The position numbers and the translations under genes were made by a program. A stretch of 64,000 nt of DNA from Epinephelus fuscoguttatus (lineage: Eukaryota; Chordata; Actinopteri; Perciformes; Serranidae): the NCBI RefSeq assembly GCF_011397635.1, contig NC_064773.1:27813449-27877448 (forward strand). Direction: 5' to 3'. Shown here one piece after another: positions 6,985 through 63,002 of this stretch (its first letter is position 1; each line of letters opens with the position of its first letter). The notes beneath the pieces were generated by a model. That model ran no database searches. It saw nothing but the letters and a program-made list of their open reading frames with translations, and was not told the origin of the DNA.

Positions 6985-7430
6985 GCAACAAGATTATCAT
7001 CACCACATAGGCAGGTTATCCAGTGAACTGGTAATTATTTTACCTTTTATGCCCATATTGTAGATGAAAGACTCAGAAGAGGAGGAGGCAGTGGTTAAAG
7101 AGAAGTGAAACTTTTCTTGGTGGGATGTTATCACGTTCATTTCTGTCAAGACAAATCCAGCTGTTAATGACTTGATGTTATATGTTATACTGTGTATGAA
7201 GCTGAGTTCTGTCAGCTGCACATTCAATCAGATGAGTCAAATCCAATGTGCAAAATTAATAAAAAGAAGAAAATCATAGAATATAAAAAAGGGAATGACA
7301 ACATGCAAGCATGCAATATGGTTTATGGTTTTATCACAGTCTCTTGTCTTTCAAAGGTCTTCCTACTGCTTAACATGGGCATCAGTATGACAGATATTTG
7401 CAGATGCAGTTTAAGGTTCCTCTTGTGGTT
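6985..7430 (+). pseudogene. Decayed copy of TIN2/zinc-finger gene, exons 4-5 block
   Basis: Aligned by eye to 40705-41170. The intron end TTATGCCCATATTG(C/T)AG is shared. The exon 4 remnant starts at 7064 with GAAAGACTCAGAAGAGGAGG, loses about 45 bp and reaches TTTTCTTG|GTG. Intron 4 is still recognisable (CAAATCCAGCTGT, GTCAGCTGCACA). Exon 5 follows at about 7353 (CAAAGGTCTTCCTACTG, then ATGGGCATCAGTATGA). Because introns are retained, this came from a DNA duplication, not a processed transcript. Frames are broken and the LINE at 7500 follows directly. Confidence 0.8.
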
Positions 7431-11095: not shown

Positions 11096-11284
11096 ACAGC
11101 TAAACAGTACACTAAAATATGTTTCTGAAAACATTTGAGGTGGGCAATAGGCGATGCAGTAACAGAATGCGATAAAAAGCATTTTTCACAAAAGTTACCA
11201 ACTGCAGCTTCAGATAGCAGAATAACTCCTGGTGCTTCCATACCATATCGGCACTTGCTGAACCCAACAGCCAACTGCAAGTCA

Positions 11285-11870
11285 ATGATAAGGTCTGATC
11301 ATGATCTAGAGAATGCAGAGGTTCAGAGCAGTAAGTGTCCCTCCTCTGAGCCTGAAGACGCAGTACTGGAACTGGACAGTTAAGTTATTTCCCTGGTGAA
11401 GGTCTGCACAAATGGACACAAACACAAACCGACCATGAAGATCCAGCTGATACACTGACAGAAGCGCATGGCCACTAAAAGAAGGAAGGAGATAACCAAG
11501 GCCAACCCTCCAGAGCTGAAGCCTTTTCCCTTCAACTGGTAAAACCATCTGTCCTCATTCTTGTCTTACAAGTGGTTTCCTTCATTTCTGTATTTATTAC
11601 TCTGGTTTTATTACTGGTTTAGTACACAGAATATAATGCACTACACTATGTTCAGTTGAATAAATGGTGGCTGTCGAGGGACATCTAGCAAATCAAGCCC
11701 CTCATGTTTATTTTTACTATCTCTTTAATGGTGCTAAGCACTGTGGGTCACCCATGGTCTCTTTAAAGGACAGTGATGAGAGTGAGTATTTAAACATAAT
11801 TTACATGATCTTTTTCACCAAAATTGCATAACCAGAGAGAAAAGAGAGCTTAGACACTAGAATTTCCATG
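11285..11870 (+). pseudogene. Decayed copy of TIN2/zinc-finger gene, 3' end block
   Basis: Matches 46901-47480, the end of terminal exon 7A plus 3' flank. Shared segments are GATCATGATC(T/C)AGAGAA, CTGAGCC.GAA, the AAGATCCAG context, AGAAGCGCATGGCCACTAAA and CCTTTTCCCTTCAACTGGTA, followed by the same AAACCATCTGTCCTCATTCT and, further on, AAAGGACAGTGATGAGAGTG. A stop after LELDS (about 11380) and another before the basic tail break the frame. The finger-coding part is not recognisable. Confidence 0.85.
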
Positions 11871-21179: not shown

Positions 21180-21665
21180 AATACTAAATACAAATAACCA
21201 TATTCAGTTCATTGTTTAGTCCATGTGGATGTCTGTACCAAATTTGAAGAAATTCCCTCAAGGTGTTCTTGAGATTTTCTGTTTACAAAAATGACACGCA
21301 CGCGAGGTCACGGTGACCTTGACCACCAAAATCTAATCAGTTCATCATTGAGTCCAACTGCATGTGTGTACCAAATGTGAAGAAATTCCCTTATGTTGTT
21401 ATTGACATATTGTGTTCACAAGAATAAGATCACCGAGTTCACAGTAACCTTGACCCTTGACCTAGGACCATCAAAACCTAATCAGTTAATTGTTGAGTCT
21501 AAGTAGACAATTGTGCCAAACTTGAAAAAAAATCCCTCGAGGCATTCTTGAGATATCGTGCTTACGAAAGATGTATGGACGTATGGACGTATGGATGGAC
21601 GGACAAATGGACAACCCAAAAATATAATGTCTCCGGCCACAGCTCTCGACAATTCGAAGGCATAA
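21180..21665 (-). repeat. ERE-bearing dispersed repeat, copy 1
   Basis: Contains the family's stock phrases in reverse orientation: AAATTTGAAGAAATTCCCTC, TTCTTGAGAT, GACCACCAAAATCTAATCAG, TTGAGTCCAACTGCATG, and the terminal CAACCCAAAAATATAATGTC plus CTCCGGCCACAGCTCTCGAC. Two internal sub-repeats of about 115-120 bp are visible. It has one perfect palindromic ERE at 21305-21319 and a decayed one near 21438. Confidence 0.8.
21305..21319. promoter_or_regulatory. Perfect palindromic oestrogen response element (CGG spacer)
   Basis: AGGTCACGGTGACCT, an inverted AGGTCA repeat with 3-bp spacing. It lies within repeat copy 1, far from any intact gene. Confidence 0.6.
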
Positions 21666-28764: not shown

Positions 28765-29004
28765 AATATCTCAACAAGGCCTTGAAGCAATTTCCAAAAA
28801 TGTTGAAACCAACATCCACTCGGACTGGAGAATAAACTGATTAGATCTTGGTAGTCAAAGGTCAAAGTCATTGTGACCTTGTCTGTCTCATTCTTGTGAA
28901 TACAGTATCTCAATAACACCATGAGGGAATTTCCTCAATTTTTTGCCACAAGCATCTTCTTGGACTCAAGAATGAACTGACTAGAATTTGGTGGTCAAAG
29001 GTCA

Positions 29005-29019
29005 AGGTCACTGTGACCT
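29005..29019. promoter_or_regulatory. Perfect palindromic ERE next to NXPE gene
   Basis: AGGTCACTGTGACCT preceded by GGTCAAAGGTCA, so a direct repeat with 1-bp spacer, a TCAAGGTCA extended half-site and the palindrome overlap in 27 bp. It lies 988 bp upstream of the NXPE ATG. Confidence 0.6.
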
Positions 29020-30006
29020 GTGAGTAATGGCCAGAAAAGTGCTTTTGCAGAACATTATATCACAGTGAAACCTACCATTGACCTTTCGGATATGAAATGT
29101 CATCACTTTATCATTATATCCTAGTAGACATTTGTGTAAAATTTTGGCATAATGAGCATATGAATTTGTAAGTTATGGCAAAAATCATGTTTTGTGAGGT
29201 GACAGTGACCTTTGACCATCAAATTCCATTCAGTTCATTCTTGAGTCCAAATGGACGTATGCGCCAAATTTGAGGAAACTCCCTCAAAACCTTCTTAAGA
29301 TATTGCATTCACGATAATGAGACAGATGCAAGACAACATGATGTCAGACATAGCTGGCCTCAAGCCACATGACCATAATATGCAACCCATCTATAAGTGC
29401 CTCATTGGCTGATATGTGGGTAGCTGTACAGTACATGATTGTTTGTCTCTTATATTTCCAGATTGCTTGTCTATTTCACAGTGACCCTGATGAAGGCCAC
29501 AAGCTGACACATGGTGTTCTGCATACTCCCAAGTGTTGCTGGAGTTTTACCTCTTCAGAATTTTCCCTTCATCCATGCATGTTGGAAGTAGGTGAATATG
29601 TGCCGGATACTCTAACTCTACCTCTGTAACGAATATGAAAACAGATATTGTGCAACTTGTTGTGAGTTTAATCTTGCAAAGCTTGCTATCAGATTGGAAA
29701 ACAGCCTGTTTAAATTTTTCCACGATGATACAAATGCACATGATCAGGTCACCTGGGAATGAAACATATTGAACTACTTGCTTGGCTTTGGCCTTGGTTG
29801 TTGATTAAGCAACATGACCATTTCCTAAGAAGTGCACCGGGCTTGCGTATACCTTTTGCAAAGACAGGATTTCACAGGTTTTAGCAAGTAGTATTCTTTA
29901 GCATAACATTGTGTCAGTTAACCTTTTGCTTCATGTTTTTATTTTTTGACTCACTGCCAGAGGAAGTGGTCACAGTGCTATGCAGCAGCCGTAAAGGACG
30001 ACTACC

Positions 30007-39490: not shown

Positions 39491-42400
39491 ATGGACTCAA
39501 GTGTCTTTACGGCCATTTCCAAAGGTTTGTTTTCTAGGACAAGGAGGACATATTAAAAACAAATTTGTGGGAGAAGTTGGAGTAAGTGACAGTTTAGAAA
39601 ACGATGACTTTTTCAGTGCTTTTACTCTAGCTAACATAATTAGCTTAGTAAACTAGCATAATAACTTTTCTTTGGATTGTAACGTTACCCTGACGCGTTT
39701 TACCGTGCATCCTAAATCATTTTGCACACATACTATCATATGGATACGAGTACTGCATGTATAGACTACAATAATGTGGCAAAAGTGTAGCTAAGTTTAG
39801 CAACATTGATGTTATTGAACATACACTCCTCGTGTCTGTTAAGGTTGCATTCAAAACAACACTGTCAGCTAATAAACAAAAGCACGGTCCTCATACTGAG
39901 TGAGAATTGGGGGTTAGCAACATGGCTATTCTCTTAACTTTTACTGTCCTCACGTTCGTGGGTTTATTGTCAGGCATTATACTTCATTTAGTTGTGTAAT
40001 TATACAAATTATTATTAAATCATCAAATTAATCCCAGAATGTCCTCAGGAATAACTCAATGATTAACAGCTTCAGTCTGACTCCCTATATTTGTACAGGC
40101 TAATGTGTTAATTTGACAACTTCTCATGTGATTTAGCATGATTTTGTAGACTGATAATATCTGATATATCAGACTAGTTTATTTAGGATTAAAGGGACAG
40201 GTTGATCAGCTGCATTCACTTTCAGTCTGCTTTTCTATTTTTCAGGTGACCCTTTACCTCTGGCGTCACTGCGTCTCCTGGTCCCACCTTTCCAGCTTAT
40301 GGCAGCCTCCATGTGTCAGGTTCTGAAGAGACAAGATGTGATGAACTACTGGAAAGTGGCAGAGTTTGTCTCTTTGGTGACGGACATGGTTCCAGAGCTG
40401 TTAATGTACAAGCACAGGATGCAGCTTAACCTGGGGTTAAGAGCCAGGGTAGGTACCAGTGGAGGACACGGGGCATTCATAGCTAATGTGGTATTTTTGT
40501 AAGATGGAGGCGATTACAGACAGTGAAGGACAGCTAATGATGTGTGAGCTGCATTGTGAACACATGAGTATTGTGTTGCAATATTTGTTTTTCTCCTCAT
40601 CAGTATATTCTTGAGCTGTGCCGAAGTGAACAGCCTGTGGAACTTGACTTCGTCTTGTCTCATCTGGACCAGATTAAACCACAGCACCCCGCCCTGGTAG
40701 ATGTAAGTTATCATCACCATGTAGGTTGTTATCCCATAGTGAGCTTGTAATATTTGTAACGTTTATGCCCATATTGCAGATAAAAGAATCAGAAGAGGAG
40801 GAAGTCGTGGTTAACTTTCGTGAGTTAATCCAGACTCTGCTGAAAGATCCTGAAGAGAGACAAGACTTTTTCTTGGTGAGTCGGTATCACTTACACATCT
40901 GCGAAGCCAAATCCAGCTGTAAATCTTACTCACTGTTAGACTTTCAATTAAGATGAATATTATCAGCTGCACACATTCAGTTATTTGTGGAAACATGTCT
41001 GAAAAAAGTCATGCAGAATCTGAAAAAGGCAAAGACAGCATTATGTGTAGTATGCGATGTGGTAAAATTGTTTTAACACAATCTCTTTTTGTCTTCCAAA
41101 GGAGGTCTTTCCTGTTGAGTATGGACCTCAGTATGAGAGTGATTTACAAATGCTGTTCTCTGAGTTCCTCTGTCGGCTGGCTCAGCTGTTGCCAGTTCCT
41201 GACCTTGAGCAGGTAAGGGGTGTCATTTTTTATAAAGAGGTAACAGTGTCTCACCATCAAAGAATGACTTACTGAGTACTGCTGAATGGGAAGAGATTAT
41301 CCTTGCATTACAGGTAGACAGCAGTAGCAATTGGAAAAGTGGTTAATGGTATGCCACTCTTGTTCTAGTGGTTATGATTTACATGTGCCATATACTGGTC
41401 GAGCAGAAGTGGAATAGAGTATGACACTCTATTAAAATAGAAGTGATAAATCATTTTAAAGTTGCATACAGCATCAGCATATCATAATAGTGGCATCTGT
41501 CAATAAGAATTGGGATATCGCGTTTCTCCAGCCACAGGCTTACTATAGCTTGACTAACTATGTTAAATGTACGGTGCCTTGTAAAAGTATTTACCCCTTT
41601 GGGCACTGTCCTATGTTGTTGTGGTACAACCTGTAATTTAAATTGATTTTTATATGGATTTTTTGTAGTGGGCCCACACAAAACAGTCAAAATTGGTAAA
41701 GTGAAATGAAAAAAAAAAATTGTTTTAAAAAGAATCTGAAAAATAAAAAAACTGAAAAGTGGTGTGCACATATGTATTAACCCCCTTTGCTATGAAGCCC
41801 CTAAATAAGCCCTGGTGCTACCAGTTACCTTTAGAAGTCACATAATTAGTTAAATGAAGTCCACCTCTGTACAATCAGTCACATGATCTTAGTTTATATA
41901 CACCTGTTCCAAAAGGCCCCAGAGTCTGCAGCACCACTAAGCAAGGTTTGCTTCTAAGCAAGTGGCACCATAAAGACCAAGGAGCCCTCCAGACAGGTCA
42001 GGGATAAAGTTTGGGGAAAGTACAGATCAGTGTTAGGCTATAAAAACTTTGAACACCCCACTGAGCAACATTAAATCCTTTTATTACAAAATGGAAATAT
42101 AGCACCATAACATAACAAACCTACCAAGAGAGAGCTGCCTACCAAAACTCAAGGATCAGGGAAGGAGGGCATTAATCAGAGAAACAACATAGAGAGCAAA
42201 GTTAACCCTGAAGGAGCTGGGAAGCTCACAGGAGAGACTGGAGTATCTGTCCCTAGGTCCACATTAAGCCATACAATCCACAGAGCTGCGCTTTATTGAA
42301 GAGTGGCTCGAAAGTTCAACTTTAATCTTACATGACCAGATTACCGTCTTCTCTAAGTTTGGGGAGTCTCCTGCGTGTCTTTTGGTAAACTCTAAACATG

Positions 42401-45400
42401 TTTTTCTTTTGTCCTTAAAGCAGTGGCTTTTTTTCTGGTCACATAAATCCCAGCTCTGTGGAGTGTATGGCTCAAAGTGTTCCTGTCTTTGCTCTCTTTG
42501 TTGTCTCTCTGATGAATGCCCTTCTTGCCTGGTATATAAAGTTTATATATACCATATAGCAGTAATGGCCACATGATATACAGTACAAGCCAAAAGTTTG
42601 GACACACCTTCTCATTCAATGCGTTTTCTTTATTTTCATGACTATTTACATTGTAGATTTTCACTGAAGGCATCAAAACTATGAATGAACACATGTGGAG
42701 TTATGTACTTAACAAAAAAAGGTGAAATAACTGAAAACATGTTTTATATTCTAGTTTCTTCAAAATAGCCACCCTTTGCTCTGATTACTGCTTTGCACAC
42801 TCTTGGCATTCTCTCCATGAGCTTCAAGAGGTAGTCACCTGAAATGGTTTTCCAACAGTCTTGAAGGAGTTCCCAGAGGTGTTTAGCACTTGTTGGCCCC
42901 TTTGCCTTCACTCTGCGGTCCAGCTCACCCCAAACCATCTCGATTGGGTTCAGGTCCGGTGACTGTGGAGGCCAGGTCATCTGCCGCAGCACTCCATCAC
43001 TCTCCTTCTTGGTCAAATAGCCCTTACACAGCCTGGAGGTGTGTTTGGGGTCATTGTCCTGTTGAAAAATAAATGATCGTCCAACTAAACGCAAACCGGA
43101 TGGGATGGCATGTCACTGCAGGATGCTGTGGTAGCCATGCTGGTTCAGTGTGCCTTCAATTTTGAATAAATCCCCAACAGTGTCACCAGCAAAACACCCC
43201 CACACCATCACACCTCCTCCTCCATGCTTCACAGTGGGAACCAGGCATGTGGAATCCATCCGTTCACCTTTTCTGCGTCTCACAAAGACACGGCGGTTGG
43301 AACAAAAGATCTCAAATTTGGACTCATCAGACCAAAGCACAGATTTCCACTGGTCTAATGTCCATTCCTTGTGTTTCTTGGCCCAAACAACTCTCTTCTG
43401 CTTGTTGCCTCTCCTTAGCAGTGGTTTCCTAGCAGCTATTTGACCATGAAGGCCTGATTCGTGCAGTCTCCTCTTAACAGTTGTTCTAGAGATGGGTCTG
43501 CTGCTAGAACTCTGTGTGGCATTCATCTGGTCTCTGATCTGAGCTGCTGTTAACTTGCGATTTCTGAGGCTGGTGACTCGGATGAACTTATCCTCAGAAG
43601 CAGAGGTGACTCTTGGTCTTCCTTTCCTGGGTCGGTCCTCATGTGTGCCAGTTTCGTTGTAGCGCTTGATGGTTTTGCGACTCCACTTGGGGACACATTT
43701 AAAGTTTTTGCAATTTTCCGGATTGACTGACCTTCATTTCTTAAAGTAATGATGGCCACTCGTTTTTCTTTAGTTAGCTGATTGGTTCTTGCCATAATAT
43801 GAATTTTAACAGTTGTCCAATAGGGCTGTCGGCTGTGTATTAACCTGACTTGTGCACAACACAACTGATGGTCCCAACCCCATTGATAAAGCAAGAAATT
43901 CCACTAATTAACCCTGATAAGGCACACCTGTGAAGTGGAAACCATTTCAGGTGACTACCTCTTGAAGCTCATGGAGAGAATGCCAAGAGTGTGCAAAGCA
44001 GTAATCAGAGCAAAGGGTGGCTATTTTGAAGAAACTAGAATATAAAACATGTTTTCAGTTATTTCACCTTTTTTTGTTAAGTACATAACTCCACATGTGT
44101 TCATTCATAGTTTTGATGCCTTCAGTGAGAATCTACAATGTAAACAGTCATGAAAATAAAGAAAACGCATTGAATGAGAAGGTGTGTCCAAACTTTTGGC
44201 CTGTACTGTATGCCGTATGCTACATAGTAACCTATACACCAGGGGTGTCCAATTCAAATTCAGAGAGCTCCAGTTACTGAAATTTCCTCCCAGCAAAGGT
44301 TCAAACCTCATAATGTCAAAATTGCAGCCCACTGGGTCCCATTCTGGAGGTTCTACCCCCCCACTAGTGGTCAACAAAGCTTCATGGAGGGTTGAGAGAC
44401 TTTCTTGATTTTAAGGAGTGGAGGAAAACTTTTTAAAAAAATATACAGTAGGCTCTTATCTCAGGATTTTATTCATTTCTGTGAAAAAAAAATGTTAATC
44501 TTTAAGAGTAGAATGTCATTTAAGCTACAAGCATCTCACAGGATAAGGGCACGGTGAGCACAAACTAAACTCACAGAGTCACTCTTTGCCTGGTCCTGCA
44601 TTAGTAAAGTACACCGTTAAAGCAACCAAAAAACCAATAGAACAAAATTGTGCAGTTTGTCATGTGTTCTGTATATGTTCTGTTATTGTTATGCATTGAA
44701 TATAATATAAAAAATACCCACCTTAATCAGGGATTGCCAGTTTATTTAATGATAGAAAAGGGGTCCCTCAAGGGAAAAGGTAGGGAACCACTATGATAGC
44801 CTACCCCTATGTCGAATACAATTTTAACAAATATCAACAAAATAGGATTTTTTTTTTTTAGATACAGACATTTGGCACTTGTATTGAATACAAATAGTGG
44901 TAACCATCTTTTTCATGAATAATATTTGTCCAAGCACTATGGAGTTAATGCCTACATTTTCAGTAAAAGAAAACAAGACAGAATCTTCTGAATAAAATAA
45001 ATTCAAAAGTGTGTCTTTCAGAAAAAGTGCAAGCAGTGTTTAGAAGCCCCTTTTCTATTTCTTTCTTTTTATGAAACTTTTTTTTTTACTTCTTTTTGTA
45101 GCGAGAGAGATGAGCCTGTCACTGTCCTGCCAGTAATTTGAAACTTGACTTAAATGGAGATGGTGCCATTGTCATGTACATGTGTTGATCCTCATGAGAG
45201 TGAGCCTGTAATGCTTTGCAGTTTTAATAACATATATAGCTGAAACAGCTCACAGCTGTAAATCAGTCCAAACATGATAAGATGTGTTGTACTACTTTAG
45301 TTATAGCAGAGAAAACGGTCTCAGATACAGTCTGTAGCTGGACAGTAGCAAGCCAGTTGCTTCATGCTGCCATTTCTCTCACCTCTCTCTCAAACCGTTG

Positions 45401-48400
45401 TTCCCTCTTTTGCGAACTGTCACGTGTTAAACATGTAAAATGATTCGACTGGCTTGATTAAGTGAAGCTGTTGCCATTTTAACTCAATGAACTGCGCCTG
45501 GGTCTATAGTCACGACCTTCAGAAAAAAGCAAGAGTCTCAAAGATTATTATTCATTCTTATCAATTTATCAGCACTGTTCACAGTTTCGGATAGAACCGT
45601 CGCCGGGTCAGACATCTGTTGATACTCGGTATAATCATTAGGATCTGTCTCAAACTGCGAGTGTAGTCAACAAGAGGTACAGTGGTCCACTCTAAAATTC
45701 TGCACTGTGATAATAATAATAAAAAAAGAAACAGGTCTTGCTATTTTGTTTATGACGTTGAAATCTTTTGATTTTACAGGATTTGGTGTGATTTGTTTAA
45801 TCTTGCATTTTCCACAGACTGTTTCCTGGCTTGGAGCCGAATGCTCTGTGTTGGAGGATTGTGTGCATTCAGTCTCTGAGCCTACAGACTTGAAAAATTT
45901 GCTCCAGCACCACAAACACCTCGGGCATTTAGAGCAACATGGTAAGTCATTACCCATAACTGCATTTATTGTACGTCAATAAAGACAGAACTCTATGACA
46001 GTGACATCTGTGTTATTCTTGTCCTCTTATTTGCAGTTCCACCTTCTAGCATGGGCGACAGCATCCTGTCCTCCCTCTCTGCAGCTCCCCCCAGCCGAGT
46101 GGCAAAACCCACAGAACAACCCAGCCAATTAGATCCAATGCAAGGCCTCAGCGATGACAAACACACTGTATTCGTGGATGGCGTAGCAGTTGAAATAATC
46201 ACAGTGACAGATTATACAGAGGTTGAATTAGACGCAAGCACCGACATCGAGGTGGTGGTGGAAGAAAACTGCTTTGACCGAACAGTGGTTGAAGATTCAC
46301 TGGTAGTGCTTCCCGATGAGACAACCAAGGAAGAAGAAGTGGGTGAAGCAGAGGAAGAAACAACACAAGCTGTAAGTGGTTTGGCAAACATCATCCATCA
46401 GGAGATGAAGAAGGATGATATAGTGTCCTCCCACCAAAAAGTCTCAGTGGGACCTCATGACTGCCCAGACTGTGAGAAGAAATTTAAGTTTGCGTCTTCG
46501 CTAATCGCCCACAGGGTCATCCACACTGGTGAGCGCCCCCACCGGTGCAATGACTGTGGTCGCTGCTTCTCTTTCAGGCAGTCCCTCGACAGGCACAGAC
46601 ACACGCACAAAACTGGACGCAAGTACAGCTGCGCTATCTGCAGGGAGACGTTTGACTCCTTATCAGCCCGCACAGAGCACAAACAAACACACATGGAAGA
46701 TAGCGTTTACACATGTCATCAGTGCAACAAGAAATTTAACTGGGAGCTGGCGCTTGCGAGGCATCTAAAAACTCACACTGATTATCACGATACAAACAAG
46801 CCTACAGGAGACCATAAGGATGAGCAAGAGGTCGTTATAGGTGATGAAACTGTCAGTGAGGCTCCTGTTGTGCTTGCTGAGCCTGACAGTCAGCTGCAGG
46901 CGGATGATAATGGCGATCATGATCCAGAGAACACAGAGGTTGAGAACAGTGAGCGTCCCACCTCTGAGCCAGAAAGCACAGTACCTGAACTAGACAATGA
47001 AGTAATTTCCTTAGTGAAGGTCCGCACAAGTGGACGCAAACGCAAACCTACCATGAAGATCCAGGTAATAAATTTACAGAAGCGCATGGCCACTAAAAGA
47101 AAGAAGGAGATCACCAAGGCCAACCCTCCAGAGCTGAATCCTTTTCCCTTCAACTGGTAAAACCATCTGTCCTCATTCTTGTCTCACAAATGGTTTCCTT
47201 TATTCCTGTTTTTATTATTCTGTTTTTATTACTGTTTAGTACAGAGAATATAATGTACTATTCTATGTTCATTTGAATATATGGCAGCTGTGGATGGACA
47301 TCTGGCAAATCAAGCCCCTCATGTTAGTTTCTCCTTTCTCTTCAGCAGTTCAGAGCACTCTTATGGTTCACACATGGTCTCATCAAAGGACAGTGATGAG
47401 AGTGAGTTCACTTCTAGAAATTTTGATCTTTTTCACCACAAATACACAACCAGAAAAATAAGAGAACTTTACACATTACAAAAAATCAAAGCAGCTTAAA
47501 GCATGTACCCTGTGTATTACAGGTTAGTAATTAAATAATAATTCCCCACTGATTTGTAAACTAAACTAAAATTGAATTGCAGACAAAAGAAAAAGATGGA
47601 GATTGTCTATGAAATATAGGTAAACTAATGTAAACAAATGAAGTCTGATGCTAAAAATGAAGTAATTACCAAGTCAAAAACCTGTAATAACAATAATGTT
47701 CTCAATATTAACATCAAGGTAGTAAAAAGTTAAAAGTAAACCCTAACCTTAAAATAAGTAATTGCTAAGCTGGGCCTGTACATCTTTAAATGATTTGATA
47801 TGCAGCATTATGTTTTTGGGTTGTCCGTCCATTCATCCGTGCGTCCCATACTTGTGACATCTCGAGAAGGCATTGAGGGATTTTGGCACAAACGTCCACA
47901 AAAACAACAAGGGAATTTCTTCACATTTGGTACACAACATCGACTTGGGCTCCATGATGAACTGATTAGATTTTGGTGGTCAAAGGTCAAGCCCACTGGG
48001 ACCTTGCCTCTGCTTCATGCTTGTGAATGTGATATCTCAAGAACACCTTGAGGAAATGTCTTCAAATTTGGCACAAACTGTCCACTTGGACTAAAAGATA
48101 AACAGATTAGAATTTGGTGGTCAGAGGTCAAGGTCACTGTGACCTCATTTGTTTCATTCTCATGGGTGTGATATCTCAAGAACGCCTTGAGGGAATTTCC
48201 TCAAATTGGGCACAAACTGTCCAAGTGATTAAAATTTGGTGGTCGAAGTTCAAAGGCCAAGGTCACTGTGACCTTATAAAATGTTTTGGGCCAAAACTCA
48301 AAAAATCATGCATGCTAATGCCTGCCCGCCCTAAAACTTTGCTGATTGTGTAGATCTTCTGTGCTGCCAGGTGGAAGACGTGTGTGAAGCATCCATATTT

Positions 48401-50002
48401 TCACAGACATGGATGTAAACTAATTGCAACTTAACTGCTGCGCAGAGACATAGAACAGCGAGGTGGTAATTTTAGTATATTGGAAAAACTACACGTCAGC
48501 ATACAATTTTTTAAACTTAATTTCCAAGGAAAATGTCCAACTTCTTTCAGAGTAATTTAATTTTAATTGTTACGAGGTAATCATTAATTCGCAACTTTGC
48601 AAGGTTACTGAAAATCCTTTGATAGTACTTAAAAAAAGAAAGTCCAAAATACAAGCATGCAATTTGTACCTTTTTTTTAGCACAATTTTAATTTCTTGGC
48701 TCCAGTCTCTAATAATGTTTTTTTTCCCCATTAGGTTCTGTAGCAGATGGCTCGTCAGCTGCTTTCTCCTGTCCTAAGTGCTTCTTCCACCACTCAGAAG
48801 AGGCACACGTCCAGCAGCACATTGACAAGGTCCACTCAGTTGAGATGGAGGATGACGAGCTGTCCTCTCAGCCCCTTGCTGAGGAAGAGGGACGCTTTAG
48901 TTGTCCAGACTGTGAGAAGAGCTTTAAGTTCCAATCTTTACTAAAAGCCCACCAGCGCATCCACACTGGCGAGCAGCCCTTCTTGTGTTCTCAGTGCGGG
49001 CGGCGGTTCTCCTTCAAACAGTCCTTGGAGAGGCACAAGCATACGCACAAGTCTGGGCGCAAGTACGAGTGCCTGATCTGTGGCGAGTTCTTCAAATCCG
49101 TGGTGGCTCAGAGGGAGCATAAGAGCACCCACATGGAGAACGGCGAGTACCTGTGTTCAGAGTGTGGCCGTTCGTTTGCCTGGAAGTCTGCACTGGTGAG
49201 ACACCTCAAGACCCACAGCGAGGATGCTGACAAGGTGGAGCGTTCTTACAAATGCCCTCACTGTGACCTTGGCTTCAACTGTGCCAGCTACCTCAACAGG
49301 CACCTCCAGACTCACCAGGAAGAACGAGTGCACACCTGCAACTGCGGAAAGAGCTTCGCCTACCGGGCAGCTCTCACTGCACATCAGCGCATCCATCAAA
49401 AGGAGCGGCCGCACATATGTACACAGTGCGGCAAGGGATTTCTCTACAAGGGGGGTTTACTGAGCCACATGAAGATCCACTCAGAGGAGAAGCCCTTCAT
49501 GTGTTCCTTCTGCGGTAAGAGCTTCAAGAGGGAACGTAACATGAAGAAGCACGAGCGCTGCCACACACGGGAAAACGTTTTCAGCTGCTCGCAGTGCGAC
49601 AAGAACTTTGTCTATAAGGCGACTTTGATCAGACACGAGCTGACTCATTCAGGTGAGAGGCCGTACCTCTGCTCTGACTGTGGGAAGGGCTTCTTTTCCC
49701 ATGCCGAGCTTCTAAAACACGAGCGTTTCCACACGGGCCACAAGCCCTTCCAGTGCCCCCACTGTGGTAAGAGATTCACTCAGTCCTGCTACCTGACCAT
49801 CCACTTGCGATACCACACAGGAGTCCGGCCATACTCTTGCACCGAGTGCGACAAGAGCTTCCTCAGTGCCAACCGCCTGAAGAGACACCAGCGAACACAT
49901 TCAGGGGAGAAACCTTACCTCTGTGTAGAATGTGGGAAGGGATTCAGGCAGTCATATAATCTGAAGATGCATCAACGAACACATATCATGAAGTTAAAAT
50001 AG
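39491..50002 (+). CDS. TIN2 N-terminal-domain zinc-finger protein with two alternative terminal exons
   Basis: Exons 39491-39524, 40246-40448, 40604-40702, 40780-40875, 41102-41212 and 45818-45941, then either 46037-47160 (596 codons) or 48735-50002 (644 codons). All joins keep frame with GT/AG. Residues about 13-195 (LASLRLLVPPFQLMAASMCQ; WKVAEFVSLVTDMVPELLMY; LNLGLRARYILELC; LFSEFLCRLAQLLPVPDLEQ|TVSWL) line up with human TIN2 positions 10-200 as I remember them, including its LPTPQAQQLQDVLSWM block. TIN2 is the shelterin hub; this domain binds TPP1 and TRF2 in mammals. No FxLxP TRF1-binding motif is seen in either tail; C2H2 fingers replace it. Function (DNA-directed TIN2-like factor) is inference. 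Intron 5 holds Tc1 elements. Confidence 0.8.
39525..40245. other. Intron 1 of TIN2/zinc-finger gene
   Basis: No repeats or exons recognised. Confidence 0.5.
41571..42540. mobile_element. Tc1-like element, two opposed 5' halves (foldback)
   Basis: The plus half begins with CGGTGCCTTGTAAAAGTATT at 41571 and runs into transposase N-terminal coding (GGAGCCCTCCAGACAGGTCA; TTGAACACCCCACTGAGCAA; AAGGAGGGCATTAATCAGAG; ATCCACAGAGCTGCGCTTTA) up to about 42315. From about 42325 to 42535 the same family runs on minus (GAAGGGCATTCATCAGAGAG; CCACAGAGCTGGGATTTATG; GGAGACTCCCCAAACTTAG). Neither half keeps a catalytic domain. Confidence 0.75.
42581..44208 (-). mobile_element. Tc1/mariner transposon, near full length, TA-flanked
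   Basis: 1628 bp between TA dinucleotides (42579-42580 and 44209-44210). The ends are CAGTACAAGCCAAAAGTTTG and CAGTACAGGCCAAAAGTTTG. Inverted repeats of roughly 250 bp are nearly identical, which argues for a fairly recent insertion. It lies in intron 5 of the zinc-finger gene, opposite to its transcription. Confidence 0.9.
42744..43828 (-). pseudogene. Tc1-like transposase, broken by one frameshift and one stop
   Basis: Start MARTNQLTKEKRVAIITLRN at about 43795; helix-turn-helix QSIRKIAKTLNVSPSGVAK, after which a one-base loss at about 43680 shifts frame. It resumes with MNATQSSSSRPISRTTVKRR; the DDE part shows VLWSDESKFEIF (first Asp region) and WPPQSPDLNPIEMVWGELDR (last catalytic region). 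An in-frame TGA follows HSILQ at about 43111, at a CGA position in relatives, consistent with CpG decay. Ends FEETRI. Length otherwise normal for Tc1 (about 340 codons). Confidence 0.85.
44230..44800. mobile_element. hAT-like non-autonomous element, copy 2
   Basis: Shares TTTCTTGATTTTAAGGAGTG, GGAAAACTTTT and CCTGCATTAGTAAAGTACAC with 31365-32040, and ends AAAAGGTAGGGAACCACTAT, which mirrors the GGTTCCCA terminus of the other copy. Confidence 0.55.
44801..45817. other. Rest of intron 5, no recognised element
   Basis: A poly-T run at about 45080 and a short AATAAT tract at 45710 are all that stands out. Confidence 0.45.
46037..47160 (+). CDS. Terminal exon 7A: acidic region, four C2H2 fingers, basic tail
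   Basis: The acceptor TTATTTGCAG|TTCCACC at phase 1 completes the codon left by exon 6. First comes an acidic, finger-free stretch of about 135 residues (TDYTEVELDASTDIEVVVEE), then four fingers at about residues 363-470: CPDC..FKFASSLIAHRVIH, CNDC..FSFRQSLDRHRHTH, CAIC..FDSLSARTEHKQTH and CHQC..FNWELALARHLKTH. A C-terminal tail follows with RTSGRKRKPTMK (AT-hook-like GRKRK) and KRMATKRKKEITK, ending NPFPFNW. The same tail end survives in the decayed copy at 11285-11870, so 7A was present before that duplication. Confidence 0.85.
47161..47799. other. 3' flank of exon 7A
   Basis: 3' UTR and intron. The first 300 bp are conserved with the decayed upstream copy. No clear AATAAA; ATATAATGTACTAT at about 47247 is a weak candidate region. 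Confidence 0.4.
48131..48145. promoter_or_regulatory. Perfect palindromic ERE in intron before exon 7B
   Basis: AGGTCACTGTGACCT, directly preceded by AGAGGTCA, giving three consecutive half-sites. Confidence 0.6.
48260..48274. promoter_or_regulatory. Second perfect palindromic ERE before exon 7B
   Basis: AGGTCACTGTGACCT, 129 bp after the preceding site and 461 bp before the exon 7B acceptor. Confidence 0.6.
48735..50002 (+). CDS. Terminal exon 7B: about fourteen C2H2 fingers
   Basis: The acceptor TTTTCCCCATTAG|GTTCTGTAGC has phase 1, so exon 6 can join it (codon G|GT). An isolated first finger (CPKC..HHSEEAHVQQHIDKVH) precedes thirteen more from about residue 271. The first four of these match exon 7A finger by finger (CPDC..FKFQSLLKAHQRIH; FSFKQSLERHKHTH; HKSTHMEN; ALVRHLKTH), showing that the exons are duplicates. 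One finger at about 49335 has CxC instead of CxxC (HTCNCGKSF), so zinc binding there may be weak. Many linkers are TGE(R/K)P-like. Stop after HQRTHIMKLK. A methionine at 48845 could start an independent protein, but the splice phase favours joining. Confidence 0.85.
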
Positions 50003-50229
50003 ACTTTAAAGGTACACTATGCAGAATTTCCCCCCCCAAAAAACAATGTTTTCACAGCTGCCCAGAATACCAGTATTGAGTCTCATCTTTGTAAATTTTG
50101 AAACTATTCCAGGTGCTTAACTTAATTGACATCTAGCTAGAGAATCTGTAAGCCTGTCACAGGCTGTGTGTTAGTCACAAAACTAGGCCAATCACTAAGT
50201 TTGAATGTCCTTCTCTGAGAATAACTAAG

Positions 50230-50235
50230 AATAAA
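50230..50235 (+). terminator. Putative polyadenylation signal for exon 7B transcripts
   Basis: AATAAA, 228 bp after the stop codon. Confidence 0.4.
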
Positions 50236-50884
50236 TATAGATGAGTGATGAATTTTGTTGGATTGCTGTTCAGTTATTCATGGGCTATTTGGGGTTTTTG
50301 AGCAAATGTAGAAAAAGAGCATTCAAATACTGATTTGGATGTTGATTTCCATGGCAACGATTGAAGCTTCAAAAATTTCAGGTCAGTCGTACAATAATTA
50401 GAGTTAAACAAAAGTAAATTTCTCAGTCATGACTTTTGACCCTCTAGAAGTGTGTTGCTGTGAATTTAAATGCAAAGCTCATTCCATGAGTGACTCTGGA
50501 GTTGCCTTTCACTTTAACTGGCAATTTTTACAATCACTAACATACAATTCCTGCATAGTATATCTTTAATTTATTGCTCTGGAGATAAATACTTTGTAAC
50601 TTCAAGGGGTATGAGACTAGTTAAGAATGGGAGAAACAACTGTAGATGGACTGTTGTGAATTTATCTCCTATGCAACTGCAAAGAAGTTCATCTAGTTTA
50701 GAATCTTGTTCTAGCAGGAATAAGTTCATGTCGAATGTTTTCCATTGAATTGTATGCATTCGATTTTCAGGTTCTGTTGCGATTAAAACACACTGTGCAG
50801 AGGAATGTGTGTTTTTCAGATCCACTGTGATCATCTCGACTCCACCTTCAAATAATGAACACAAGGTTTTACATAAATTCAGTC

Positions 50885-50890
50885 TTTATT
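50885..50890 (-). terminator. Polyadenylation signal of APEX1
   Basis: AATAAA on minus (TTTATT on plus), about 600 bp after the APEX1 stop. APEX1 and the zinc-finger gene converge tail to tail here. Confidence 0.55.
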
Positions 50891-51374
50891 GTGGGTTTGT
50901 TTTACAACAGAAAATTCAACACTGCTTTGGAAAAGAGGCTTAAAACTTTTTTTGTGCTAGAACAAGTTGCATTTTCTTAACAGCAGCTGTTAAGTTTTGG
51001 ACAGTAACAAAAACATACTGCAGGCTCTGTGGCATGGAGGCTCGTCTCAGGTCAGCAGTAGTACAGACAGGAGCCACACTGTAGCGCAGTTCCACAGCCG
51101 GTCACGGGTCATTGTTGAAAATCAGCTTAGACATCTTTGAGTATTTAGTGTTGCATCTTTACGGAACAGTTGAGGACAGGTGAACATCACCGGGATTACT
51201 GACAAACTTCAATTGTGTGGAGAGGATTTATGGGCATTATGACTTTTGCTGTGGAGTCGTATTATCAACATTTCATGTGAAAAAGTTAAAAGTACTAGAC
51301 AACTAAGTTACAGCAGAGACTACTGAGAGATAGAGTTTGGGCAGCACTTGTTTCAGCCCAAATAGGGAATGCCT

Positions 51375-51488: not shown

Positions 51489-53647
51489 CTACACAGCTAT
51501 GTGCAGAGTGATGGGGCAATGGTCGCTTCCCAAGGCCTTGTTGCGAATCTTGCTGTCGCACAGACCTGGCACCAGGCTGGACGACAGCAGAAAGTAATCG
51601 AGCCTCCAGCCCACGTTCTTTGCGCGGGAGTTCATCATGTAGGTCCAGAAGGTGTAGGCGTTGGTCTGCTCGGGGTACAGCTCGCGGAAGCTGTCGGTGA
51701 AACCGGACTCCAGCAGCTGGCTGAAGCCCTCGCGCTCCGCGGGGGTGAAGCCTGCGCTTTTCTTGTTCCCTTTGGGGTTCTTCAGGTCGATCTCCTGGTG
51801 TGCCACGTTCAGGTCACCACACAGCACCAGGGGCTTCTGCATGTCCAGCTCGCTCAGGTATGCCCGGAAGTCCACGTCCCAGGTTTTGCGGTAATCTAGG
51901 CGCACAAGGCCCCTGCCGGCGTTTGGCACATAGGTGGTCACCAGGAAGAAGTTGGGGAACTCTGCAGTGATGACTCGGCCCTCCTTGTCATGCTCTTCTT
52001 TACCTAGAGCATTGGTTTTAGAGGTTTAGTAAACTAAATGCACTTACTTCACCAGGATTCAAAGACATGTCCAGTTAAATAGTTTTTATAGGTTTGCAAG
52101 AACATTAAAAATGAAGAGTCATGAAACTCGGCAAGGCAAGATCGCAGTGTACAACAATATGTAAAAAATATCATTTACTTTCGTGCAGACAATCATCTAT
52201 ACAGTAAATGTGACACTACTGTTAGCAGCTGGTTAGCTTATGTTAGCATAAAGACCAGTAACAGCTGGCTTGGTTTAAAGATAAAATCTGCCTACCTGCC
52301 CCTCTAGAGCTCACTAATTAACAAGTAATAACTGATTTGTTTGATCAAGAAATTTCATTTTTGGTTAATTTTGCTTTCGATAGCTCGAAACCCTTTAACC
52401 GGTGACTGAGCAGTTAATTTTTAGGAAAATAAAAACTCAAAATGATGTTAAATACAAGTCCAGCATTCCACTGATTTGGTGAGCTTTGGCACCACATTTA
52501 GAGGTGTTGCCATATTTATTTTGTAAAAGTAACATGCTGAAACATAGCGGCCGATGTCCACCCTCTAGTCTCCACTTCGTTGCAAATCTGCAAGTCCTAC
52601 GATGACAAAGCAATGATCTGCCCTACCCTCCCTCTGATTAGCTAGTGCTTGTTGCCTTCGTTGATTGGATTGGATTGGTTAGGTTTAGCAAGAGGAGTGG
52701 ACTGGGTTAGTTAGGATAAGCCAATCAGAAACAGAGTAAGGCAAACCATTCCTTCACTATCCTATAATTTGCAAATTGGCCTTCTGATTAGCTAGCCTTG
52801 GCTGCTCTGCACTGCGTACCGCCTGAGACAAGTGGGAACTAGCTAGCGCCGCTGCTCATTCAGCAAATACCACTCTGTCCTCTGGTCCGGAAAACAAACT
52901 AGAATTTTTTGCCTTTTATAGCGACCACTGTAGTTCAAACTTTGGTTAGGTCTGCTTTGGGCCCAGAGTTAAATTTTTAAAATTACATCATTAGAAGACA
53001 CCACTCACCAATGCCATAGGTGACTTTGAGGGGCTCAGTCTTGCAGAGCATGGCCACACCACTGTAACCCTCCTTTTCATCTGACCCGGCCCAGTACTTG
53101 TGAGGGTACTCGGGCATCGAGGTGATTTCAGCAGGAAGGGATTTCTCTGCACACTTTGTTTCCTGCAGGCACAAAATATCTGGAGCCTCCTCACGCACCC
53201 ACTGTGAGGAAGAGCACATGTGTTTACCCTTAAAACCAGTCTCAGAACTTAAATTGGCATACTTTGCTTTTGTTTACTGCAAACTCACATCCAGGCCCTT
53301 CTTTTTCACCCAGGCCCTCAGGCCATCGACGTTCCAGGAGGTGATCTTCATATTGGCGTCACGTCCGTCTTTGCTGGTCATTTTGTCGGGGGGATCATCG
53401 TACAATACTGGGGCCTCTGGTTCCTTAGGCTTCTTTGCTTTCTTTGCAGAGGCTGTGAGGCGAAATAAATGTATAGGGTCATGAAAAGTGGTAGGCTGCA
53501 CATGTTTTTGTTAGGAAAATGTATTTAAAAGTTGTTTAATGTGTAGAGATCAGTATGTGTTTGTGCATTAGTGAAAGCTGTAGTACCAGAGCCTGAGTCA
53601 TTCTCCCCATCTGCAGCTGCATCCTCTGCATTCTTGCCTCTCTTCAT
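51489..53647 (-). CDS. apex1: Apurinic/apyrimidinic endonuclease 1, complete
   Basis: Coding exons in order on minus: 53647-53587, 53452-53289, 53201-53009, 52003-51489; 310 codons. It cuts the backbone at abasic sites in base excision repair. A lysine-rich nuclear-signal N-terminus ([17 protein letters not shown]) leads into the exonuclease III-like domain from about residue 55. Active-site residues are in place: Asn61 (SWNVDGL), Glu89 (CLQETKC), Tyr164 (YVPNAGRGL), Asp203/Asn205 (LCGDLNVAH), the Asp in GWRLDYFLL, and Asp300/His301 (GSDHCPITL). Residue 58 is Thr in KITSWNVDG, where mammals have the redox Cys65; zebrafish is known to have Thr58, so redox activation is not expected. The first donor is GTACTA, weaker than the others. 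The 5' UTR continues to an acceptor at 53719-53721 and probably a distant exon near 55.5 kb. Confidence 0.95.
52004..53008. other. APEX1 last intron
   Basis: About 1 kb, no exon or transposon recognised. Confidence 0.5.
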
Positions 53648-53865
53648 ACTTGAACTCGCTCGGACCGCAAACACACCTCGCAGACACACGACACGCACAC
53701 ACAACAGCACACGCGCCGCTGGAAAAACAGAAGAGCAATTTAAGTGACGTGTTCATCTGACACTGAGTGTCAAATGCTACAACAACGTACAAGACTAAAA
53801 TTGCTTTTGTTTTATATCATTGTACAGGTGGTCAGACAAAACAAGCAATTTTAAGATGCCACCTT

Positions 53866-57544: not shown

Positions 57545-63002
<5,458 letters not shown>

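Follow-up and report, generated by a model that had tools for sequence, protein, structure and literature searches.

A predicted grouper gene joining a TIN2-type shelterin domain to C2H2 zinc fingers

Organisation of the locus

The window, i.e. the whole stretch of 64,000 nucleotides that was analysed (Epinephelus fuscoguttatus, NCBI RefSeq assembly GCF_011397635.1, contig NC_064773.1, positions 27,813,449 to 27,877,448), carries on its plus strand a predicted gene with six exons for a TIN2-type domain and two possible terminal exons for C2H2 zinc fingers. Exons 1 to 6 (39491-45941) are spliced in frame with GT-AG borders and give 222 amino acids without a stop. The exons, the transposon between them, a candidate small exon and two decayed sequences further upstream are listed here in the order of the window.

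6994..7423, plus strand: remnant of a decayed gene copy, matching the exon 4-5 region at 64.9% identity
11254..11862, plus strand: further remnant of a decayed copy, matching the exon 7 tail and 3' flank at 82.8% identity, with two in-frame stops
39491..39524, plus strand: exon 1, start codon, MDSSVFTAISK, 34 coding bases and a phase-1 donor, joined in frame
40246..40448, plus strand: exon 2, first part of the TINF2_N (TRFH-like) domain
40604..40702, plus strand: exon 3, TINF2_N domain
40780..40875, plus strand: exon 4, TINF2_N domain; acceptor in the top 7.16% of AG
41102..41212, plus strand: exon 5, final part of the Pfam TINF2_N match
42578..44211, minus strand: Tc1-type transposon within intron 5, flanked by inverted repeats of 273 bp (98.9% alike); HTH_Tnp_Tc3_2 in 43113-43733
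45818..45941, plus strand: exon 6, past the Pfam match; end of the phmmer similarity to TIN2; block TDLKNLLQHHK; phase-1 donor
46037..47160, plus strand: exon 7, terminal; four C2H2 fingers between an acidic spacer and a tail, the latter with a basic stretch; ends in a stop
47346..47401, plus strand: candidate small exon, SSEHSYGSHMVSSKDSDE, containing an ATG at 47374 and sharing the reading frame of exon 8
48735..50002, plus strand: exon 8, with 14 C2H2 fingers and a stop; either an alternative terminal exon or belonging to a second gene

The splice sites were scored with splice-site weights and ranked among all GT or AG of the window; 11 of the 13 fall into the top 1.6%, the exceptions being the donor of exon 1 and the acceptor of exon 4. 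The weakest-supported piece is exon 1, which shows no homology and has a weak donor (top 5.09% of the GT in the window). Its ATG has an A at -3 and a G at +4.

By eye, the transposase of the Tc1-type element looks broken: its frame is interrupted by a stop at 43113-43115, and its start region (43903-43550) is in a different frame. A dispersed repeat is located between the two finger exons (47899-48319), and the window contains several other, diverged copies of it, for instance within 21201-21557, 28766-29332 and 61921-62197. The other genes of the window match the Exo_endo_phos, TsaD, NXPE and SelO families. Two of them form a head-to-head pair beside the fusion gene (51489-53752, minus strand; 58598-62889, plus strand) and resemble apex1 and osgep; a single frame was scanned in either gene, with matches to Exo_endo_phos and TsaD, and the remaining exons were read by eye. 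We take the Exo_endo_phos gene to be APEX1-like and the TsaD gene to be OSGEP-like; human apex1 and osgep are neighbours as well.

The TIN2-type domain of exons 1 to 6

An earlier note on this DNA, made from the letters, had recognised a TIN2-type domain at the N-terminus, and the searches bear this out. With the peptide of exons 1-6, the Pfam profile search returned PF14973 (TINF2_N) at E = 2.3e-47 and 161.5 bits (cut-off 29.4), the match spanning residues 36-181 of the peptide and positions 2-149 of the 149 in the profile; the human TIN2 segment reaches 190.9 bits on the same profile. When 177,635 distinct PDB sequences were searched by phmmer with an E limit of 10, human TIN2 was the sole match (5xyf_A, E = 6.1e-12); the phmmer alignment with it extends to residue 192, inside exon 6. 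Identity to human TIN2 is low (46 of 162 aligned residues). None of 200 shuffled peptides gave a match to human TIN2 within an E limit of 10, compared with E = 6.5e-14 for the spliced peptide. When the peptides of five exons were searched one at a time, those of exon 2 (E = 1.9e-05) and exon 5 (E = 0.00013) matched human TIN2 on their own, and those of exons 3, 4 and 6 did not. From the profile, PDB and shuffle results, we conclude that the assignment to the TIN2 family is correct. The TIN2-like peptides quoted in the earlier note were all recovered, three of them in exon 2 and the fourth (LPVPDLEQTVSWL) across the join of exons 5 and 6.

TINF2_N was the sole Pfam family matched by the exon 1-6 peptide (E limit 1), with no match to KRAB, SCAN or BTB, and the NCBIfam search with the domain returned no family. 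A tblastn search with the human TIN2 segment revealed only the locus of exons 1-8 within the 64-kb window at E < 0.3. Relatives of the domain were also sought in viral contigs with a single-sequence query that captures close relatives only; it yielded six pattern matches, none of which was confirmed.

Two finger exons and a decayed copy upstream

C2H2 fingers do follow the TIN2-type domain, as the earlier note had it, but they are distributed over two separate terminal exons rather than forming one continuation. The spacer of exon 7 (residues 223-360) contains 30 D/E versus 8 K/R, and the tail behind its four fingers (residues 470-596) is likewise acidic overall (26 D/E versus 17 K/R), with the basic stretch KRMATKRKKEITK near its end; the stop codon lies at 47158-47160. 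The fingers of both exons are arranged in tandem with TGEKP-like linkers, of which exon 7 has one and exon 8 several; one exon 8 finger has a shortened cysteine spacing. By inspection, many fingers look atypical at the usual DNA-reading positions, which we count against the main reading presented below. The predicted products comprise 596 and 644 codons without stop or frameshift.

The first finger blocks of the two exons share 55.9% identity over 127 amino acids. Between the finger blocks dN is 0.39 and dS 1.93, a value near saturation that makes the strength of selection only a rough estimate. The comparison suggests a tandem duplication of the terminal exon, after which both copies have been retained under selection.

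Both exon 7 and exon 8 have phase-1 acceptors that fit the donor of exon 6, so that a protein bears either one array or the other, unless exon 8 is part of a second gene. The intron between exons 6 and 7 measures 95 bases, its phases fit, and exon 6 has no stop ahead of its donor. This short intron and the phmmer alignment reaching into exon 6 tie the TIN2 part to a zinc-finger exon, and the fusion put forward in the earlier note is supported by in-frame predicted splicing. A protein with all 18 fingers, generated by joining exon 7 to exon 8, is ruled out by the stop at the end of exon 7. A donor within exon 7 (after 46528, phase 1) is unlikely and would retain just the first of its fingers.

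The strongest alternative concerns exon 8. Exons 1-7, with the TIN2 domain and four fingers, could form one gene, and the small exon at 47346-47401 could form a separate downstream gene together with exon 8; we give this arrangement a chance not far below even. The acceptor of the small exon is strong (top 0.29% of AG, with the donor in the top 2.6% of GT), and just one of its frames, the one with the ATG at 47374, stays open into exon 8. If used, the small exon would place exon 8 in a gene of its own. Against this, exon 8 is also in phase with the exon 6 donor, and the decayed copy, as aligned, lacks the AG of the small exon's acceptor. The two-gene arrangement is compatible with the main reading, since the fusion is kept, but with the four-finger array only. 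No AATAAA is present between exons 7 and 8, the nearest ATTAAA being located at 47530; the lack of an AATAAA counts against the main reading.

The two remnants at 6994-7423 and 11254-11862 match the intact gene in order and strand. This conservation of order and orientation for remnants of both halves is indicative of a joint duplication of the TIN2-type part and the zinc-finger part. Given the differing identities of the two remnants, more than one duplication event may have taken place. Between the remnants, no match to the zinc fingers was obtained by tblastn at E up to 10. By eye, the intervening sequence looks transposon-like.

Partner-binding features, zebrafish relatives and a proposed docking role

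In mammalian TIN2, as passages of PMC7617103 describe it, the TRFH domain binds TPP1 and TRF2, a TBM binds TRF1 and TRF2, and there is a disease cluster. The motif of the TBM is given as FxLxP in a passage of PMC5309834. The earlier note had not seen this motif in the grouper sequence, and neither of the predicted products contains [FY]xLxP; the one FxLxP in the three plus-strand frames of 41213-51000, at 43396, lies opposite the transposon. According to a passage of PMC8262337, residues A15, F152, E153 and W198 of human TIN2 are required for TPP1 binding. In comparison with the human reference only, the grouper peptide has M in place of A15 and S in place of F152, E153 is kept, and W198 is unaligned. 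Human TIN2 and the grouper protein have in common the TRFH-like N-terminal domain, which aligns over almost its full length, whereas the grouper protein lacks the FxLxP TBM, carries C2H2 fingers after the domain instead and differs in two of the three aligned TPP1-binding residues. The retention of E153 at the TPP1 interface is counted against the main reading.

Zebrafish provides the closest published parallel. Passages of PMC3032778 describe three zebrafish homologues of TIN2 that share their N-terminal domain and differ in the C-terminus. They report a TBM for zfTIN2-1 only and co-precipitation of TPP1 by the N-terminal region of zfTIN2-1 only, not by that of zfTIN2-2; the word "zinc" does not occur in the main text of the paper. 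The N-terminal region of zfTIN2-2 ends at residue 210, and its end-primer peptide DMKSLLEHHT, taken from the same passages, resembles DLKNLLQHHK at grouper residues 205-214. None of 1000 shuffles compared as well with exon 6. This link consists of a single 10-residue peptide, whereas six primer peptides were compared in all: among the other five, one peptide of zfTIN2-3 is borderline (42 of 1000 shuffles as good) and four are unmatched (331 to 909 of 1000). The start-primer peptide of zfTIN2-2 is the one with 909 and counts against the link. Like the grouper protein, zfTIN2-2 and zfTIN2-3 have a TIN2-type N-terminal domain, another C-terminus and no TBM; zfTIN2-2 has a similar peptide at the end of the domain but a dissimilar one at its start, and the passages of the paper do not describe the zebrafish C-termini. 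We infer that the grouper gene may be of the zfTIN2-2 kind, namely, a TIN2 paralogue that has lost its shelterin contacts and become the docking domain of a zinc-finger protein. Ordinary zebrafish Tinf2 is enriched on TTAGGG DNA (passage of PMC11846949), and by analogy the grouper gene is probably an extra copy and not the TIN2 of the species.

The domain, the in-frame splicing pattern, the fingers, the missing FxLxP motif and the decayed copy of both halves can all be read from the DNA itself. Our main reading, which we regard as moderately probable, is that of an intact zinc-finger gene whose N-terminal domain represents a duplicated and diverged TIN2 TRFH-like domain with a docking role, mainly outside shelterin. 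It is supported by the low dN relative to dS between the finger blocks, by the existence of zebrafish TIN2 homologues with differing C-termini and by the zfTIN2-2 primer peptide that matches exon 6. Such a protein would be located in the nucleus, where its fingers would bind chosen DNA sites and the TIN2-type domain would serve as a peptide-docking module that delivers a recruited partner to the finger-bound sites, a role comparable to that of KRAB, SCAN or BTB domains in other zinc-finger proteins. The partner is probably no longer TPP1, which would have the protein work mainly outside shelterin. Exons 1-6 may be spliced to either terminal exon, thereby providing one docking domain with two DNA specificities; alternatively, exon 8 may be part of a second gene, and the main reading permits both. 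C2H2 proteins with an N-terminal KRAB, SCAN, BTB or ZAD domain are a known kind. The grouper gene follows the same plan of a protein-binding domain and a long C2H2 exon, but its N-terminal domain is TINF2_N. We class it with the TINF2_N domain family and, broadly, with the C2H2 proteins rather than as TIN2.

Of the two roles suggested in the earlier note, the transcription-factor-like one fits better, and the bridging of shelterin is left without support by the changes at A15 and F152 and by the TPP1 result for zfTIN2-2. It appears unlikely that the protein is a shelterin-linked adaptor whose domain still binds TPP1 and TRF2 peptides and whose fingers place TPP1-POT1 or TRF2 at telomeres or internal sites. 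The full-length TIN2-type domain, the conserved E153 and the binding of TTAGGG repeats by several vertebrate zinc-finger proteins (passage of PMC11846949) would agree with an adaptor, but both substituted TPP1-binding residues, the absent TBM and the lack of TPP1 co-precipitation by zfTIN2-2, the closest published relative by peptide (passage of PMC3032778), argue against it. We are similarly doubtful, and a shade more so, about the joint proposal of a shelterin hub domain wired to two alternative finger arrays that delivers TIN2-type partners, be it TPP1-POT1, TRF2 or fish-specific ones, to genomic or telomeric sites without TRF1. That the TIN2 exons and the zinc-finger exons represent wholly separate adjoining genes is highly improbable in view of the 95-base intron with fitting phases, the open reading of exon 6 up to its donor and the remnants of both halves in the decayed copy. 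Equally improbable is a dying duplicate that is losing its function like the copy at 7-11.9 kb: the decayed copy and the Tc1 element in intron 5 would be in line with decay, but 596 and 644 codons are free of stops and frameshifts, and dN is low relative to dS between the finger blocks.

The preferred docking role would mean that a shelterin hub has had its docking domain put to a new use by fusion to DNA-binding fingers. If true, the gene would make it possible to test directly if there are partners of TIN2-type domains away from telomeres, and it would be a warning that a fish gene annotated by its TINF2 N-terminal domain need not be TIN2. In the passages of open-licence PMC literature that were consulted, those of PMC7227075 among them, we came across no protein that combines a TINF2-type domain and zinc fingers; from zebrafish, TIN2 homologues whose C-termini are of another kind are already known (passage of PMC3032778), and protein databases may well hold annotated fish proteins of such make-up.

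A search of the exon 7 tail against the PDB gave no TIN2 match and two matches to a bacterial protein (best E = 0.22). The last part of this tail (47025-47157) contains GRKRKPT and ends in NPFPFNW. It may bear a faint resemblance to the disease-cluster region of human TIN2.
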